64,000 nt of DNA. It comes from Halobellus salinus. GTDB taxonomy: Archaea; Halobacteriota; Halobacteria; Halobacteriales; Haloferacaceae. A program made the translations under genes and the position numbers. The DNA lies in assembly GCF_014646875.1 (NCBI RefSeq), contig NZ_BMOC01000006.1, forward strand, positions 62,001-126,000, in the 5' to 3' direction. Under the pieces are notes generated by a model. That model saw only the letters and a list, made by a program, of their open reading frames with translations, did not search any database and was not told where the DNA came from. Positions 56,706 through 64,000 of this stretch are shown here, one piece after another; within the stretch, counting starts at the first letter, position 1, and each line of letters begins with the position of its first letter.

Positions 56706-58373
56706 TCACTCTACCCTCGTGACGTCGAACGGCAGCCCCTCTGTCCCGTCGCGCTGGAAGTCTTCGATGAACTCGTTGACCTCGTGGTACCCCACGATGT
56801 TCTCCTGGATCGCTCGATTGATAATCTCCGTGCGGAATTCGAGGTCATCGTAGATCTTCCGGGTGTCGTCGTACCCCAGAAGCGTCGCGATCTTCTCTTC
56901 CATAACGTAGGAGTTGTTCCGGCCCTGGAACACGATTTCGTCCTCAACAGGATCCCAGTAGAACGCCTCTCGGGTGACGACCCCGCCCATCTCCTTGGAG
57001 TACCCCTCGATCTCCTGGACCGAGGTGACGCGGCGGAGGGTCTCGTCGCCCCGCTTGACCCGGTTCTGGAACAGCGCGATGTCGGCGTTGGACATGAACG
57101 TCTCGGGGACGTTTATCGGATCGCCGGTGAACCGCTGGATCATGGAGACGATGTCGGAGGCGTGGAACGTCAGCATGACAGGGTGGCCGGTCTGGGCCGC
57201 CTGGAACGCCATCCGCCCCTCCTCGCCGCGGACCTCCCCGACGATGATGTAGTCGGGGCGCGACCGGAGCGCGGCCGCGACCAGGTCGAACATGTCCACC
57301 TCTGAGTCGGTGCCGCGACCCTCCCGGGTGAGGAGCTGCTGCCAGGTGTTGTGCGGGGGCAGCACCTCCGCGGTGTCCTCGGCGGTGTAGATCTTCGCGT
57401 CCCGTGGGATGAACGACGTGATCGCGTTGAGCGTGGTTGTCTTGCCCGACGCCGTTTCCCCCACGACGAAGATGGTCCGCTCGTTCTCTAAGGCCATCCA
57501 AAGGTACGCACACAGCTGCGGCGAGAGGGTTCCCCAGTCGGCGATCTGGAACACCGAAAGCGGTACGTCGTCACCCTGCCGGATCGTGAGCGACGACCCC
57601 TTCAGCGACACGTCGTCGGAGTAGATGATGTTGATACGCGACCCGTCGGGCAGCGTCGAGTCCACGATCGGGTGAGCGTCCGAGACGGGGTCGCCGATCC
57701 GCTCGCCCATGTTTCGGAGCCAGTTGTCGAACTGCTCTGCGGAGTCGAACTCGATTGTCGTTTCGAGCAGTCCGAACTCGCCGTGGTCGACGTCGACCTG
57801 GTTGGGGCCGATGACGTGGATGTCCTCGTTTGCCGGGTCGCGCATAATCGGTTCCAGCGGCCCCAACCCGACGATGTCGCGCACCAACCGGTACTGGATC
57901 TTCTGGTGGGTCTGCTCGGAGACTTCGAGCGGGCCGAGTTCGAGCCGCTGGACCAGCTCCGAGAGCCGGCCGTCGCGTTCTTTCTCTAGGACAGTGATCT
58001 CGTCGAGTAGCTCTTCGATCCGATCCTCGTACTCGGTGTTCTCGGTCGGCGCGGGCTGGGAAACCGACCGTTCCAGGAGCTTGTTCTTCACGTCGCCGAA
58101 GACCCCTCGCTCGGACTCGTTGAGTTCCGGTTCGATGGTGTAGTATTTGGTGGTCTCGCCGAAGTTGCCGTACACCTGGCTGTAGACCGGGCCGCCGAGG
58201 TGGTAGATCACGTTCGGCCGCCGCGACTCGTAGCCGTCCGGCTCGTCGACCAACATCGGAAACTCCCCGGTGATCTGTCGGAACCGCTTGAGATGGTCTT
58301 GGAGGTGTGTCCACCGTTGAGCGTGGCGTTTGAGTTCCGGGTCCAGCTTGGCCGAGCCGTGTTCGGTCGCCAT
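56706..58373 (-). CDS. arlI: Archaellum motor ATPase ArlI
   Basis: This 555-residue protein is a GspE/PilT superfamily secretion ATPase that powers archaellum assembly and rotation. Walker A is VVGETASGKTTTL (about 305), the Asp box follows at IYTAEDTAE, Walker B is YIIVGEVRGEEG, and the His box is LTFHASD. The N-terminal 200 residues form the regulatory domain. Its ATG overlaps the arlH stop (TAATG at 58371-58375). The arlJ gene follows. Confidence 0.96.
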   Translation of the reverse strand: MATEHGSAKLDPELKRHAQRWTHLQDHLKRFRQITGEFPMLVDEPDGYESRRPNVIYHLGGPVYSQVYGNFGETTKYYTIEPELNESERGVFGDVKNKLLERSVSQPAPTENTEYEDRIEELLDEITVLEKERDGRLSELVQRLELGPLEVSEQTHQKIQYRLVRDIVGLGPLEPIMRDPANEDIHVIGPNQVDVDHGEFGLLETTIEFDSAEQFDNWLRNMGERIGDPVSDAHPIVDSTLPDGSRINIIYSDDVSLKGSSLTIRQGDDVPLSVFQIADWGTLSPQLCAYLWMALENERTIFVVGETASGKTTTLNAITSFIPRDAKIYTAEDTAEVLPPHNTWQQLLTREGRGTDSEVDMFDLVAAALRSRPDYIIVGEVRGEEGRMAFQAAQTGHPVMLTFHASDIVSMIQRFTGDPINVPETFMSNADIALFQNRVKRGDETLRRVTSVQEIEGYSKEMGGVVTREAFYWDPVEDEIVFQGRNNSYVMEEKIATLLGYDDTRKIYDDLEFRTEIINRAIQENIVGYHEVNEFIEDFQRDGTEGLPFDVTRVE

Positions 58374-59119
58374 TACGCAACGCTCCTGGACTCGATGACG
58401 ATGCCGATCCCCGACCGGACCGAGAAGCCGACCCGGTCGCCCACCTGTTCGCCCATCCCCGCGAACCGCTTCACGAAGATGTTCCGCCGGACGTCGTTGC
58501 CGACCTCAACCATCTCCAGTTGGAGGTAGACGTCCGCGATCGACCGGAACGGGCCGATCGCCTCATCGTCGACCGTCGAGGGGTCGACCGTGAGCACGAT
58601 GGTCTTGCCTTTCGTGGTCAGATCACGGAAAAAGGAGATGATCTCGAGGGCTGCCTGGCGCTCCTCGTTTTCTCGGACCAACGCCTCGAACTTGGGGTCG
58701 TTCCGGAGGATGGCGTCGAAGGTGTCGACGACGATGACATCGGCGTCCCACATCGTCTCGGCTCCCATCATCCGCTTGAGTAGCTCTTTCCGTTCCTCTT
58801 CGCCACCGCTTAACGTCCCCGAAGCGTCGATCTCTGCCGGGATGAAAAGCACCTCCTCGTTGATCAGGGGTTTGACCATGTCGTAGGCCAGCGAGTTCAT
58901 CTGGTCCAAGAACCCTTTCACGCCCAACTCGGTCGAGACGAGCGTCGTTACCACGTTCTCGGTGTTGAACCCGTAGGTGAACCGCTGGGAAAGGACGCTC
59001 TTGCCGGCGCCGTAGTCGCCCTCAACGAGGACAATCGAGCCTTTGGGGATGCCGCCGCCGAGTTCCTTTTCGAGCCGATCGTGGTCGGTGAGTCCGATGG
59101 GGTAGTGGTTCGAGCTCAT
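58373..59119 (-). CDS. arlH: Archaellum motor RecA-like protein ArlH
   Basis: This 248-residue RecA/KaiC-like protein has Walker A LVEGDYGAGKS (about 31-40) and Walker B DVIVVDTFD (about 130). The Walker A has a conserved Lys-Ser. ArlH binds nucleotide and scaffolds ArlI and ArlJ. It overlaps arlI and lies 2 bp after the arlG stop. The start is at MSSNHYPIGL. Confidence 0.95.
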   Translation of the reverse strand: MSSNHYPIGLTDHDRLEKELGGGIPKGSIVLVEGDYGAGKSVLSQRFTYGFNTENVVTTLVSTELGVKGFLDQMNSLAYDMVKPLINEEVLFIPAEIDASGTLSGGEEERKELLKRMMGAETMWDADVIVVDTFDAILRNDPKFEALVRENEERQAALEIISFFRDLTTKGKTIVLTVDPSTVDDEAIGPFRSIADVYLQLEMVEVGNDVRRNIFVKRFAGMGEQVGDRVGFSVRSGIGIVIESRSVA

Positions 59120-59121
59120 CG

Positions 59122-59571
59122 TTATGTCGTGGTGAATCTGAACGTCTCTTCGTCGCCGCTGACGACAAGCCGAACCCGGTGGTCGCCCGGATCCAGCGGG
59201 GTTAGGTCGCCGATGGTCACCCTGACGACTCCGTGGGGCGTCCACTCGGTCCCGCCGTCGACAACGGTGACTGATACGTTCGTGCGGTACTGCGCGTCGA
59301 CGATCACGTCGACGGACTCGCCCGTCGCGGGTATCGTTCGCCTCCCCGTGTTCTTGACGTAGAGTGTGAGGGTGCCCGCATTGTACACGTTGCTTTGGGA
59401 GTCGCTGATGACCTCGATATCGGTCCTGATGTTCTCGGCGACATCGGCGCCGCGGTCGTCAAGCGCACCACTGATTCCGGTGACGGTGTCGATCAGGACA
59501 CCCGCCACCCCTGCGGCGACCACGATGCTCGCGATGAACAGGATCAGGCTCGGGACCGAGACGTCGGCCAC
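59122..59571 (-). CDS. arlG: Archaellum stator protein ArlG
   Basis: This 149-residue protein starts at GTG with an N-terminal transmembrane helix (SLILFIASIVVAAGVAGVLI) and an immunoglobulin-like beta domain (NAGTLTLYVKNTGRRTI). It is anchored in the cytoplasmic membrane with the beta domain outside, and with ArlF forms the stator complex on the S-layer. The start follows the arlF stop directly (TGAGTG). Confidence 0.93.
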   Translation of the reverse strand: MADVSVPSLILFIASIVVAAGVAGVLIDTVTGISGALDDRGADVAENIRTDIEVISDSQSNVYNAGTLTLYVKNTGRRTIPATGESVDVIVDAQYRTNVSVTVVDGGTEWTPHGVVRVTIGDLTPLDPGDHRVRLVVSGDEETFRFTTT

Positions 59572-60036
59572 TCAGCCCACCTCCTCAACCGTGGTGTTGC
59601 TCGCGGCTACCCCGTTCTCGGCGACGACTTTCACCCGGTCTGGGGTGGTAGCGTCCAACGCGGGCGCGGTGTCGGCGTCGACGGTCACCACAAGCGACTG
59701 GTCGGGCGCCCACACGTCGGTCGCGGTGTCGTCGTCGACCGCCGTCGAATCCGGGATCGCGAACTCGTTGTCTACGAGAAGGCTCGTGTCCGCGACCGAC
59801 AGCGCCGTGGTCCCGTTGTTCGTGGCGGTGACGGTGAGCGTGCTCGTGTTGGTGTTGTACGTCACGGACGCCACGTTGATCACGGTGTTGCGACGGTCGA
59901 GGAGTTCCTCGCTCTCGGCGCTGCGGGCGTCGGATAGCTGTTCGGCGCTGCCCGCCGCCGCGGTGTACAGCGTTCCCGACGCGATCAGGACTCCCAGGAA
60001 GACGACCGCTGTCGACCCGCTAACGCCGAATCCCAC
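59572..60036 (-). CDS. arlF: Archaellum stator protein ArlF
   Basis: This protein of about 154 residues has one N-terminal helix (SGSTAVVFLGVLIASGTLYTA) and a beta-sandwich (NTSTLTVTATNNGTTALSV). ArlF binds the S-layer and with ArlG forms the stator. I prefer the GTG at 60036 giving M-GFGVSGS, the usual family start; GTGs at 60042 and 60045 are also in frame. It overlaps the arlCE stop by 17 nt. Confidence 0.9.
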   Translation of the reverse strand: MGFGVSGSTAVVFLGVLIASGTLYTAAAGSAEQLSDARSAESEELLDRRNTVINVASVTYNTNTSTLTVTATNNGTTALSVADTSLLVDNEFAIPDSTAVDDDTATDVWAPDQSLVVTVDADTAPALDATTPDRVKVVAENGVAASNTTVEEVG

Positions 60037-61642
60037 GGGCACCACCCCCGAGTGCCGACAGCTCTTCGAGCAGCCGTGCCTTTTCGACGTCGCCGGCGAG
60101 CCGGCTGATGTACGTGAGGCTCTCCTGGTGGTCCCGGACGCGGAGGTCGCGGGTCTCCTCGGTCCCGCCAGCAGCGGCAGCGTTGCGGACGTGTTCGCCG
60201 ACGGTCCGCTCGACCTGGCGAGTGATCCACCCCTGTTCGCGGTACTGCCGCAGGGCGCGGACTGCTCCGACCACGCCGCCGACGTCGACCAGGAACTGGG
60301 TCCACTCGAGCACCACCGACTCCGCGGTGTATCTGGCCGGAATCCGTGTGAGATACGCGTCGGCGTCGTGCTCGGCGGCTGCCGTGGAATAAACGGACGA
60401 ATCCGGACCCGCGTGGCCGTTGGTCACACCGTTCGTCTCCGCGCCGGGACTCGCGCCCCGGGCGTCTTCGGGATCGACCGGGTCCGACTGGACGAACTCG
60501 TCGGCCTCCACCTGGTCGGCTTTCACTCGACCCGCCTCAACCTCGTCGGCTGCCACTCTATCAGCTTCCACCTCATCAGCTTCCACCTCGTCGGATCCGG
60601 TACTCTCGGCTTCCACCTTGTCGGCTTCCATCTCGTCAGCTCCTCCCTCGTCGGATCCGGTACTCTCGGCTTCCATCTCGTCAGCTCCTCTCTCGTTAGC
60701 TTCGTCCCTGTCGCCGGGTCCGTCATCACCATCAGCTTCGTCGTTGTCGGACCCGAACGCGTCGTCCGCGTCGGGGTCGTCGATTCCGTCGGCATCGAAT
60801 GGTTCCTCCGCGACAGCTTCATCGAGGTCGCTCTCGGCGTCCTCGTCGTCGGCGACTTCGTCCCACTCGCCGTTCTCCTCGTATTCGGATTTTAGCTCAT
60901 CGAAGCTCGTTCCCCCGCCGGCGTTGGTCGAATCGTCGCCGTCAAGCGCAGCCGCAGGATCCTCCCGTTCGTCGCCGGCGAGTTCGTCGCCCGCGGCGAG
61001 TTCAGCCTCGTCCTCGTTTGCGTCGATGTCGCCGAAATCCTCGTCGAAGAACGCCTCCGCGTCCGCGTCGGCGACGTCGGGGTCAAGGCTGTCGTTGGAC
61101 TCTTCTTCCATCTCGAAGAGTCCGAAGGCGCCCTCACTCTCCAAACCGCCCATCTCGCGGGCGTCGTCGACGAACGGGTTGATGCCGCGAGTAACCATTT
61201 CGTAGATGTCCAGCAGCTTCCGAACCGTGTCGTCGAGTTCCTCAACGGTCTCGCCGATCTGTTTGTTCTCCTCGCGAACGGTGCTCATCTCCGAGGTCGT
61301 CGAGCTGAGCTCGTTTTCCAACTCGGAGATCCGGTCTTCCATCTCGGCGATGGTGTCGGGATCGATCTCGGTCCCGCCGAGGTCGCCGCCCGCGTCGTCG
61401 AGACCCTCCGTCCCATCGCCGAACCCACCCATATCGCCGTCCAGACCGTCCATTTCGTCGCCTGCATCGCCGCCGAAACCGCCCATATCGTCGTCGAAGT
61501 CGCCCATCCCGTCGTCAAGCCCGTCCATATCGTCGCCCGCGTCGTCGAAGTCGCCCATCTCATCGTCGAACCCCAGGCCGTCCGTCGCGACGGGTTCCGA
61601 CTCCGAGCCATCACTCCCGGTGATCCAGTCCATCATATCCAT
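60020..61642 (-). CDS. arlCE: Archaellum cytoplasmic ring protein ArlCE (fused ArlC and ArlD/E)
   Basis: This 540-residue protein is the haloarchaeal fusion. The N-terminus holds Gly/Asp repeats (MGGFGG, DMDGLDDGMG). Next is the ArlC coiled coil (MEDRISELENELSSTTSEMS, about 105-160) and the conserved region IYEMVTRGINPFVDD. A disordered acidic linker carries repeats of VEAD and ESTGSDE. The C-terminal 120 residues are the ArlD/E domain (AYLTRIPARYTAESVVLEW, about 425-540). It forms the cytosolic ring that couples the motor to CheF and chemotaxis. The linker is unusually long and repetitive. Confidence 0.93.
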   Translation of the reverse strand: MDMMDWITGSDGSESEPVATDGLGFDDEMGDFDDAGDDMDGLDDGMGDFDDDMGGFGGDAGDEMDGLDGDMGGFGDGTEGLDDAGGDLGGTEIDPDTIAEMEDRISELENELSSTTSEMSTVREENKQIGETVEELDDTVRKLLDIYEMVTRGINPFVDDAREMGGLESEGAFGLFEMEEESNDSLDPDVADADAEAFFDEDFGDIDANEDEAELAAGDELAGDEREDPAAALDGDDSTNAGGGTSFDELKSEYEENGEWDEVADDEDAESDLDEAVAEEPFDADGIDDPDADDAFGSDNDEADGDDGPGDRDEANERGADEMEAESTGSDEGGADEMEADKVEAESTGSDEVEADEVEADRVAADEVEAGRVKADQVEADEFVQSDPVDPEDARGASPGAETNGVTNGHAGPDSSVYSTAAAEHDADAYLTRIPARYTAESVVLEWTQFLVDVGGVVGAVRALRQYREQGWITRQVERTVGEHVRNAAAAGGTEETRDLRVRDHQESLTYISRLAGDVEKARLLEELSALGGGARGIRR

Positions 61643-62010
61643 CCCGACTCACCCTCGTCGCTCCGACTCCCGGTTGCCGCCCGGCGCGGCCGCCGTGGAG
61701 GGACGCAGCGCCCCGTAAACGCCGCTGGCGCGGTCCGACCGGTCCGGCGGTCCGGTCTCGGTGGCTCAGGTAGCATTCACCGAGATATCCTTTCGTTAGT
61801 ACAAGAAGGTTCGCCCGAAATTATCGCTCCTGATATACCGACAGACGGGTCGTGGCGGAGCGCCCAAACCCGCCGGATTCGGCGGCATCGAGCGGGGGTG
61901 AGTGTGCGCAACAGAGCTGCTCCCGTTTTGACATTTTCTCCGCGGAGGGAAGAATTATCCACGTGGGGAACGGATCGCGTATCAGACACCCTTCAGGAAG
62001 GGACCACACT
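61643..62010. promoter_or_regulatory. Divergent control region of arlCE operon and RAD55-like gene
   Basis: No coding signal was seen. Two A/T-rich patches (61785-61835 and 61920-61958) in otherwise G+C-rich DNA are candidate promoters. Two perfect palindromes, CTCCGCGGAG (61938-61947) and CCACGTGG (61959-61966), lie 45-75 bp upstream of the RAD55-like gene and could be operators. Confidence 0.5.
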
Positions 62011-62766
62011 ATGCCAGAATTCGTCAAAACCGGCGTCGAAGGGCTCGACTCCATTCTCAACGGAGGGATCGTAGAAAACGCTGCCGTGCTGGTGAGCGGA
62101 AACCCCGGGACTGGCAAGAGCATTCTCGGGATGCAGTACCTCTACAATGGGGTCGAGATGTTCGACGAGGGCGGGATCTACCTCACATTCGAGGAGACCG
62201 CCGACGACATCAGCCAAGCCGGGCAGTCGATCGGGTTCGACCGCTGGGACGAGTTCATCGAGGAGGGCCGGATCAAGATCTACGACAAGCGCACACTGCT
62301 CCGCAGCGGCGACTTCTCCGACACGCTGGACACCATCCTCGGCGACCTCCAAAACACCAAGTACGACCGGCTCGTGCTCGACTCGCTGACGATGTTCCAG
62401 CTGTTCTTCGATGACGAAACCGAGCAGCGGCAGTATCTCCTGAAGTTCATCGACATCCTCAAAGACAGCGGGCTCACCTCGGTTCTGACAATGGAGCAGT
62501 CGGCGGTGTTTCCCGACACGGAGATCGGACTCGAGAACTTCCTGACCGACGGCAACATCTACCTCATCCAGTCGCCCGCCGGGTCCACGTCGAACCGGTA
62601 TATCTGGGTGGCGAAAATGCGGAAACAGCCGATCGAGAACTCGATGTTCCCCCTGGAGATCGAGGAGGGCGGCATCCAAGTCTACGAGCAGGCCGCCGGG
62701 TTCTCCATGATGGGTGAGTCGCCACCGGGATTCGGCGAGGAGAGCCCCGGCGGCGGGTTGGAGTGA
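62011..62766 (+). CDS. RAD55/KaiC-like ATPase in the archaellum locus
   Basis: This 251-residue single-domain RecA-like protein starts MPEFVKTGVEGLDSILNGGI. Walker A is VSGNPGTGKS (about 30-39) and Walker B DRLVLDSL (about 128). It looks like a single KaiC domain. It is divergent from arlCE and convergent with the archaellins, and I see no second KaiC domain or serine phosphorylation pair. A GGAAGGGA stretch about 8-15 nt upstream is a possible ribosome-binding site. Haloarchaeal RAD55-like proteins are common; the location suggests a motility role. Confidence 0.85.
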   Translation: MPEFVKTGVEGLDSILNGGIVENAAVLVSGNPGTGKSILGMQYLYNGVEMFDEGGIYLTFEETADDISQAGQSIGFDRWDEFIEEGRIKIYDKRTLLRSGDFSDTLDTILGDLQNTKYDRLVLDSLTMFQLFFDDETEQRQYLLKFIDILKDSGLTSVLTMEQSAVFPDTEIGLENFLTDGNIYLIQSPAGSTSNRYIWVAKMRKQPIENSMFPLEIEEGGIQVYEQAAGFSMMGESPPGFGEESPGGGLE

Positions 62767-63150
62767 CGGACCGCTGAATCCTGTCTCCCGGAGCCACGAC
62801 GCCTTCCCGACGCCGTCCGACCACGACGCGACCCCCGTTGGCCAACGGTGTCCGGCCCTGTGGAGAACCGCTACCCGCGGGGCCCCGATGCTGGCGCTTC
62901 TCGGGTGGTTTCGCAAAAGGTGCTCGGCCGCGACCGACGACGAATCCGGTTGGTGAGTCCCTTGTTCTCCGGGCGCGTTGCCGAATCGTCGTGAGGGGTA
63001 CCTGTCGAAGTCGTGTGTCGGGGTGGCTTCCCGAACATATCCGCCGTTGTGCGTCGTCGCAGCGTATGACCTCTACGCGACTCCGGGGCGCTCAACTCGA
63101 GCGCTCGAAAAGGCAGAATACGGCCGGACAGCGGGATAGCCGGGGAGTCG
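62767..63150. other. Gene-free region downstream of the RAD55-like gene and archaellins
   Basis: This is a 384-bp convergent region with no supported gene. It holds a perfect 14-bp palindrome CCGTTGGCCAACGG (62835-62848) and a 6-bp-stem hairpin GCGCTC-loop-GAGCGC (63088-63104), about 50 bp after the archaellin stop. The hairpin could help end the archaellin transcript, but no T-run follows it. Confidence 0.5.
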
Positions 63151-63804
63151 TTATATCGGGACCGGGTCGCCCTCTTCGCTACCGGCGAGTTGATCGGGCA
63201 TCGTCAGCACCACTTCGGTAGTTCCACCCGATTGGGTCGTGATCTCAAGCTGGACTGTCTCACTCGGTTCCAGTCCGTCCCCGTCACTGTTGCCTTCGAT
63301 ATGCTCGGCGTTGATCGTCAACTCGTAGCGATCTTCGTTACTGTTTAGCACACCGAACGAGTCGTCGGAATCGGTCGCTTCGACCGGTGTGACGTTGAAC
63401 GCGGTGTCGGTGCCCGGGTCACCATTGAGAGCGGCTGTATTGTTCGTCAGCGTTGCGACGTTATCCTCGCTCAGGTACTTTATCGTAGTCGCATTCAAGT
63501 CGGTTGCGTCCGCCCCTGAGGCGAGTCCAACCGTCAGAGTCAGGTTCGCGACTGACCTGTCACCGTCGGTTCCCTTGGGCCCAACCGTCGCGTGCTCGTT
63601 GATGACCTCTATGCGCTCGGTAACCTGGTCAACGCTCTCCTGTCCGGTGTCCTCTGCGGTTGCTTGGAGGAACCCGGCGGTGTTTACCAAGACACCAGCG
63701 GCAATTGCTGCGACCAGCACCATCGCGATGAACACGATGAGCGTGCCGATCCCGACCTGTGCACGGTTCTCCGATTCGCCGTTGAATTGTATGAATTCCA
63801 TCAT
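63151..63804 (-). CDS. arlA: Archaellin
   Basis: This 217-residue protein has the archaellin class III signal: a short charged leader ([15 protein letters not shown]), then [20 protein letters not shown] and a long hydrophobic helix. ArlK would cut just before Q. The rest is a beta-rich domain with several NxT/S glycosylation sequons (NLT, NAT, NNT, NVT). It lies 9 bp downstream of another archaellin, so both are one operon. The family has A and B types; I cannot tell which one it is. Confidence 0.95.
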
Positions 63805-63813
63805 TGTGCTATC

Positions 63814-64000
63814 TTACAGTGGGACCGGGTCGTCGTCGTCCTCGCCGTTGAGTTGGTGCGGCATCGTCAAAACCACGTTCGTAGTCCCGCCGCTTCGGGT
63901 GGTGAGCTCTAGTTGTAGTGATTCACTCGTCCCGAGGCCGTTCTTGTCTGCCCCCTCGACGTTGGAGGCGTTGATCACGATCTCGAATCGGTCGCTCTCT
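63814..64000 (-). CDS. Archaellin (5' part outside the window)
   Basis: Only the C-terminal 61 residues are visible. They end NGEDDDDPVPL. The visible part aligns with the end of the next archaellin: both have SDRFEIVIN or EDRYELTIN, an acidic loop, S-G-G-T-T, a VVLTMP block and a final DPVP. It is therefore a tandem archaellin paralogue cut by the window edge. Confidence 0.9.
   Translation of the reverse strand, partial: ESDRFEIVINASNVEGADKNGLGTSESLQLELTTRSGGTTNVVLTMPHQLNGEDDDDPVPL

Follow-up and report, generated by a model that had tools for sequence, protein, structure and literature searches.

CirA, a KaiC-like ATPase, and the transcription factor CsmR are both already known from Haloferax volcanii, and the core idea that they regulate motility is not new. 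As stated in excerpts of two reports, H. volcanii deleted for cirA is hypermotile and rod-shaped in every growth phase, with derepressed arl and che genes (PMC13286277, PMC12240190), and still carries archaella in stationary phase (PMC13286277). A motility phenotype upon deletion, which the first-pass annotation of the present DNA had anticipated, is thus already published for H. volcanii. The excerpts of PMC13286277 also report that the CirA and CsmR regulons overlap, that CsmR binding was shown, that a cirA csmR double mutant resembles the csmR deletion mutant, that pilin transcripts are raised in both mutants, and that the RNA hvo_1211s overlaps the 3' end of cirA; csmR is said there always to co-occur with arlA1 and arlA2 in Halobacteria, and the biochemical activities of CirA are called uncharacterised. 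In the excerpts of PMC12240190, a density signal in conditioned medium is ignored by the cirA mutant, and CirA rises with conditioned medium.

Excerpts of two other papers place the genes in a wider setting. In PMC3941300, cirA was placed among the flagellar genes, and primers for its quantitative PCR were given. In PMC4858521, KaiC ATPases and a PF12840 regulator were noted near archaellum genes, the PF12840 family arCOG03067 was located near flaB genes, and most KaiC-like proteins were without a reported partner. CsmR probably belongs to arCOG03067, judging from the shared Pfam family PF12840.

The cirA gene of Halobellus salinus

The window, a 64,000-nucleotide stretch of the Halobellus salinus genome, carries a KaiC-like gene in its archaellum locus (Table 1). 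In a Pfam profile search, PF06745 (KaiC) matched residues 5-227 of the product in one stretch (E=1.5e-50). This match and the domains of the neighbouring genes agree with the first-pass description of a single-domain KaiC-like ATPase lying between archaellins and arlCE on the opposite strand. On the minus strand, arlCE is followed by arlF, arlG, arlH, arlI, arlJ and cheF (profile matches), and past csmR (L121) a CheY-like gene and then a CheC/CheX gene lie on the other strand. The reading frame is a real gene and not a chance one, because 192 of the 391 sampled genomes of the class Halobacteria encode an orthologue.

Table 1. Features of the cirA locus (window coordinates, except csmR).
Feature	Position	Strand	Remarks
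arlH	58373..59245	-	KaiC-like motor component of the same locus; start codon uncertain
arlCE	60020..61642	-	FlaC_arch and Arch_fla_DE domains; upstream of cirA, divergent
arlCE/cirA spacer	61643..62010		divergent spacer, 368 bp
Conserved promoter-like block GAACCTTCTTGTAC	61799..61812	-	between box and arlCE; putative promoter element
CsmR-box-like site TATCGCTCCTGATA	61822..61835	-	one mismatch to the consensus
Conserved TATA-like block GAAGAATTATCC	61949..61960	+	51-62 bp before the cirA start; putative promoter element
cirA orthologue	62011..62766	+	251-aa ORF, ATG at 62011 to TGA at 62766; single-domain KaiC/RecA ATPase
Archaellin gene	63151..63804	-	downstream of cirA, convergent
Second archaellin gene	63814..64000	-	runs past the window end
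csmR	L121:6766-7110		just outside the window, beyond the archaellins; 114 aa, PF12840 helix-turn-helix

The gene is identified from its sequence as an orthologue of cirA because of its protein identity, the layout that it shares with Haloferax and the fit of published primers. Its product is 82-84% identical to Haloferax proteins from loci with the same gene layout, and its closest named relatives are Halobellus proteins from five loci (86-90%); the layout around cirA is common to the Haloferax and Halobellus loci. The products of further KaiC-family genes of the same genome are at most 29% identical to it across most of the protein length, and the orthologue is single-copy in each of the 192 genomes. 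Both published H. volcanii cirA primers (PMC3941300, excerpts) fit inside the gene without mismatch in L044, L046 and L049, with 0-1 mismatches in L045, L047, L048 and L050, and with 1-6 mismatches in L051, L052, L072 and L085. The link to H. volcanii cirA itself is this primer fit in Haloferax loci, the identities being those to Haloferax orthologues. One locus titled Halobellus captivus strain ZY8 (L073) has a cirA only 62% identical and a layout unlike that of Halobellus, and is probably misnamed.

As in H. volcanii, the gene lies between archaellins and arlCE on the opposite strand and encodes a single KaiC domain; the differences are the genus and the spacer corresponding to hvo_1211s. 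The window region 62767-63150, between cirA and the archaellins, is the counterpart of the H. volcanii stretch that makes the RNA overlapping cirA. This spacer is poorly conserved even within Haloferax and does not align within Halobellus, where no conserved promoter-like block was found in it.

csmR is the constant neighbour of cirA

Among the 391 genomes, cirA was called at E<=1e-60 (192 genomes), csmR at E<=1e-15 (331) and ArlI above its curated cut-off (294). The cirA threshold sits in a gap: of 17 genomes rechecked at E<=1e-15, two gave no match, 12 had best E values of 1e-22 to 1e-30, and three had an orthologue at 1e-91 to 1e-99. All 192 cirA genomes contain csmR. Conversely, 139 of the 331 csmR genomes, including whole families, are devoid of cirA; csmR works there without it, which counts against a mechanism that joins the two proteins.

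The two genes are also physically linked, in 46 of 48 loci of a first set and in 30 of 34 loci of a further set, which holds one or two loci per genus and overlaps the first in species, so that the counts are not summed. The two misses of the first set are a locus ending at a contig edge (L041) and one from a metagenome bin that matches only in part (L086). The four of the further set belong to families f9 and f10, where csmR is not within 8 kb and lies about 10 kb or 43 kb from cirA. Four layouts were found: convergent, co-directional with csmR downstream, csmR directly upstream (gap of 5 or 29 bp), and split by archaellins, the last being that of the window locus. The gap of the convergent pair exceeds 200 bp in three loci (two of the first set, one of the further set). 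In Halorutilus (L082:9657-9971) and a related genome (L117), csmR directly precedes cirA on the same strand, by 29 and 5 bp respectively, in what looks like an operon.

Other neighbours vary. At 16 of the 48 and 2 of the 34 loci, a divergent arlC lies no more than 1 kb from cirA. The position beside arlCE, whose conservation the first-pass annotation had proposed to survey, is thus kept in a few lineages, and the constant neighbour of cirA is csmR, not arlCE. As a DNA-binding protein and not an ATPase, CsmR differs in kind from the protein whose constant genomic partner it is. A dedicated partner gene in every sampled cirA genome would allow a direct test of how archaeal KaiC-like proteins act. 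A response regulator gene is divergent from cirA, in the place of arlCE, in 12 of 48 and 10 of 34 loci (e.g. L055:9207-9818), and the one such regulator tested has a HalX domain. Other loci, eight of the first set and nine of the further set, have a CheW gene upstream of cirA in the same orientation.

CirA as a predicted ATPase

CirA is predicted to be an ATPase, as all KaiC-type ATPase motifs are present: Walker A (S29-S37), the catalytic glutamate pair E61/E62, Walker B (D124) and the K-x-R motif (K202/R204). Residues K36, E61, E62, D124, K202 and R204 are invariant in 74 of 74 distinct orthologues. In KaiC proteins, the K-x-R motif acts across the subunit interface. The best solved relatives of CirA are KaiC structures, and in the best hit the CI half scored 122.7 bits and the CII half 46.0 bits. 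N176 and F177 align with the CII phosphosites, which we take to be S431/T432 of KaiC; the orthologues have N or E and F or Y at these positions, and Ser or Thr in 0 of 74. Because the ATPase residues are invariant and the CII phosphosites are missing, CirA would be better described as a conformational switch driven by ATP than as a protein that runs through phosphorylation cycles as KaiC does. The assignment of the fold rests on sequence, since structure prediction gave a mean pLDDT of 54.9.

Two closer identifications were rejected. CirA is not a KaiC clock protein proper: Walker A and B, the Glu pair and K-x-R align with those of the cyanobacterial CI domain, but CirA is single-domain, lacks the CII half and its phosphosites, and scores 105.1 bits against a TIGR02655 cut-off of 546.25. 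Nor is it a duplicate of ArlH (FlaH). Both are KaiC-like ATPases of the archaellum locus, but ArlH is a motor component encoded in the arl operon whereas cirA is on the opposite strand and not part of that operon, and CirA scores 52.8 bits against the 215-bit NF052589 cut-off.

The best explanation of these data, which we consider reasonably probable, is that the cirA product is an ATP-driven modulator of CsmR that restrains motility. The boxes bound by CsmR (TATCA-N4-TGATA) would stand upstream of genes for the archaellum, for chemotaxis and, probably, for type IV pilins, and CirA, a KaiC-CI-like ATPase, would restrain motility by modulating CsmR. At high cell density CirA would accumulate, the targets of CsmR would be turned down, and the cells would leave the motile rod state. 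The proposal implies that CirA may oligomerise and may contact CsmR physically, and that its output would be set by nucleotide state and not by phosphorylation of the KaiC-CII type.

Phosphorylation is at the centre of an alternative proposed in the excerpts of PMC13286277, which sees CirA as a protein kinase or autokinase with the C-terminal tail of CsmR as its substrate. KaiC CII offers a precedent, and Ser or Thr occurs in the last eight residues of CsmR in 62 of 66 distinct cirA-linked sequences versus 6 of 15 from cirA-less genomes, groups that leave out L122n, L131n and L139n (S/T in the tail, cirA unlinked or distant). This contrast is suggestive but follows phylogeny, which may account for it. 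CirA, however, is closer to CI than to CII and has no orthologue with Ser or Thr at the CII positions, and S/T-free CsmR tails occur in two Haloferax (L051, L072) and in both loci with csmR upstream of cirA (L082, L117). We regard a kinase role as unlikely.

Retention of the pair without an archaellum

ArlI was absent (below the cut-off) in 16 of the 192 cirA genomes, and in 15 of these a PF01917 archaellin-type protein was absent as well; five of the 15 (G017, G073, G089, G195, G359) are at least 98% complete. The near-constant pairing with csmR, even after apparent loss of the motor, is the new point of this work. In the literature searched, supplements aside, no statement was found of an obligate cirA-csmR pair, of its retention without archaella, or of CsmR boxes at pilin genes, nor was an interaction or ATPase assay of CirA found.

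The view that cirA is confined to archaellated cells was rejected, as the gene is retained without ArlI and archaellins. Some of the losses are partial, since G359, with neither ArlI nor archaellin, retains an arlCE-like gene. One cirA genome (G225) gave seven archaellin-type matches while its ArlI was not over the cut-off. Among the 331 csmR genomes, 58 are without ArlI over the cut-off, archaellins having been checked in the 16 cirA genomes.

These genomes bear on whether the two genes are functionally tied at all. The conserved neighbourhood can be explained by descent alone, and 36 of 48 and 25 of 34 cirA loci also include an arl gene, as would be expected of two independent archaellum-locus genes held together by mere inherited synteny. 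Against this, the linkage holds across four gene orders and where archaellum genes have been lost, and cirA was never seen without csmR (192 of 192); simple synteny is therefore quite improbable as the whole explanation.

The same genomes argue against CirA acting directly on the motor beside ArlH. ArlH belongs to the same superfamily and the same locus, and the first-pass annotation had suggested that a second KaiC-like protein could switch the motor or archaellin synthesis. Of this suggestion, the regulation of motility and archaellin expression is borne out by the H. volcanii reports; a direct role beside ArlH in switching the motor finds no such backing and is very improbable, since CirA is 26% identical to ArlH and far below its cut-off, cirA is kept in genomes without ArlI and archaellins, and the published effects concern transcription and cell shape. 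A role of CirA in timing by light or by day and night, which its name implies and which the reported rhythmicity of the four H. volcanii cir genes in light-dark cycles would favour (PMC3941300, excerpts), is also hardly credible, given a single KaiC domain without CII phosphosites and knockout phenotypes that density and growth phase explain (PMC12240190, excerpts).

CsmR boxes in the arlCE/cirA spacer

CsmR boxes were searched with the published consensus TATCA-N4-TGATA and its reversed pattern as control. All 19 loci that share the layout of the window have a one-mismatch box between arlCE and cirA. The box of the window most likely serves arlCE, because the minus-strand block is then spaced from it as in archaellin promoters. 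As cirA has its own TATA-like block, while the box and the minus-strand block face arlCE, the spacer resembles a pair of promoters that point away from each other. The first-pass proposal of a control region shared by cirA and arlCE therefore holds for the divergent spacer, which appears to contain two separate promoters.

The 3.07-Mb genome to which the window belongs has two exact boxes, 1.3 kb apart, and none of the reversed pattern; they precede the archaellin pair and the CheY-like gene, both in the cirA locus. The distant genome G274 too has an exact box upstream of arlCE. Exact boxes were seen about 45-60 bp before genes for chemotaxis-transducer-like products (family assigned by eye) with similar N-termini in one Haloferax genome (L158, L161) and one Halobellus genome (L160).

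In four ArlI-less genomes (G073, G359, G017, G089), five exact sites were found versus two of the reversed control (both in G359). Exact sites alone prove little there, because they do not clearly outnumber those of the control. One of the five precedes a pilin gene (L146), one is at a pilin gene start in G089 (by coordinates), and one has no clear target (L145). In G359, one box lies about 45 bp before the arlCE-like gene (L151:172-1455), and the only other about 220 bp before a gene for the cell-shape protein CetZ (L142:1731-2909).

CsmR-box-like sites upstream of type IV pilin genes

Three sets of genomes were compared: nine without ArlI and archaellins (set A), ten without csmR and cirA (set B), and nine archaellated genomes with both cirA and csmR (set C). 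The region from -300 to +15 of PF07790 pilin loci was scanned, three loci at contig ends (L171, L246, L249) being dropped. No box was found before pilin genes tested in the genome of the window (0 of 2) or in one Haloferax (0 of 4).

In set A, boxes with at most two mismatches lay within 300 bp upstream of 17 of the 29 pilin loci listed, and six had at most one mismatch; the reversed pattern matched 1 of the 29 loci listed, and the rate in shuffles was 5.5%. The corresponding numbers among the loci listed were 3 of 30 in set B, with none at one mismatch, and 12 of 28 in set C, with five at one mismatch. Counted per genome among the loci listed, a box was found between -230 and -130, an interval picked after seeing the hits, in 8 of 8 genomes of set A (the only locus of the ninth was dropped), 0 of 10 of set B and 7 of 9 of set C. 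For the loci listed, Fisher tests of A versus B gave p=9e-5 per locus and 2e-5 per genome, with kinship ignored, although the genomes of set A are related, four coming from one genus, and are not independent.

These sites are consistent with a broader role, which we put forward tentatively: CirA-CsmR may be a two-gene switch for surface filaments generally and not an archaellum regulator, serving archaella where present and type IV pilins (perhaps also CetZ) where these have been lost. If the pair does control pilins as well, a single density-responsive ATPase would connect swimming with adhesion and cell shape. The contrast between the sets stays when only canonical pilins are counted, with 14 of 26 loci listed in set A versus 0 of 13 in set B, whose pilins are more divergent.
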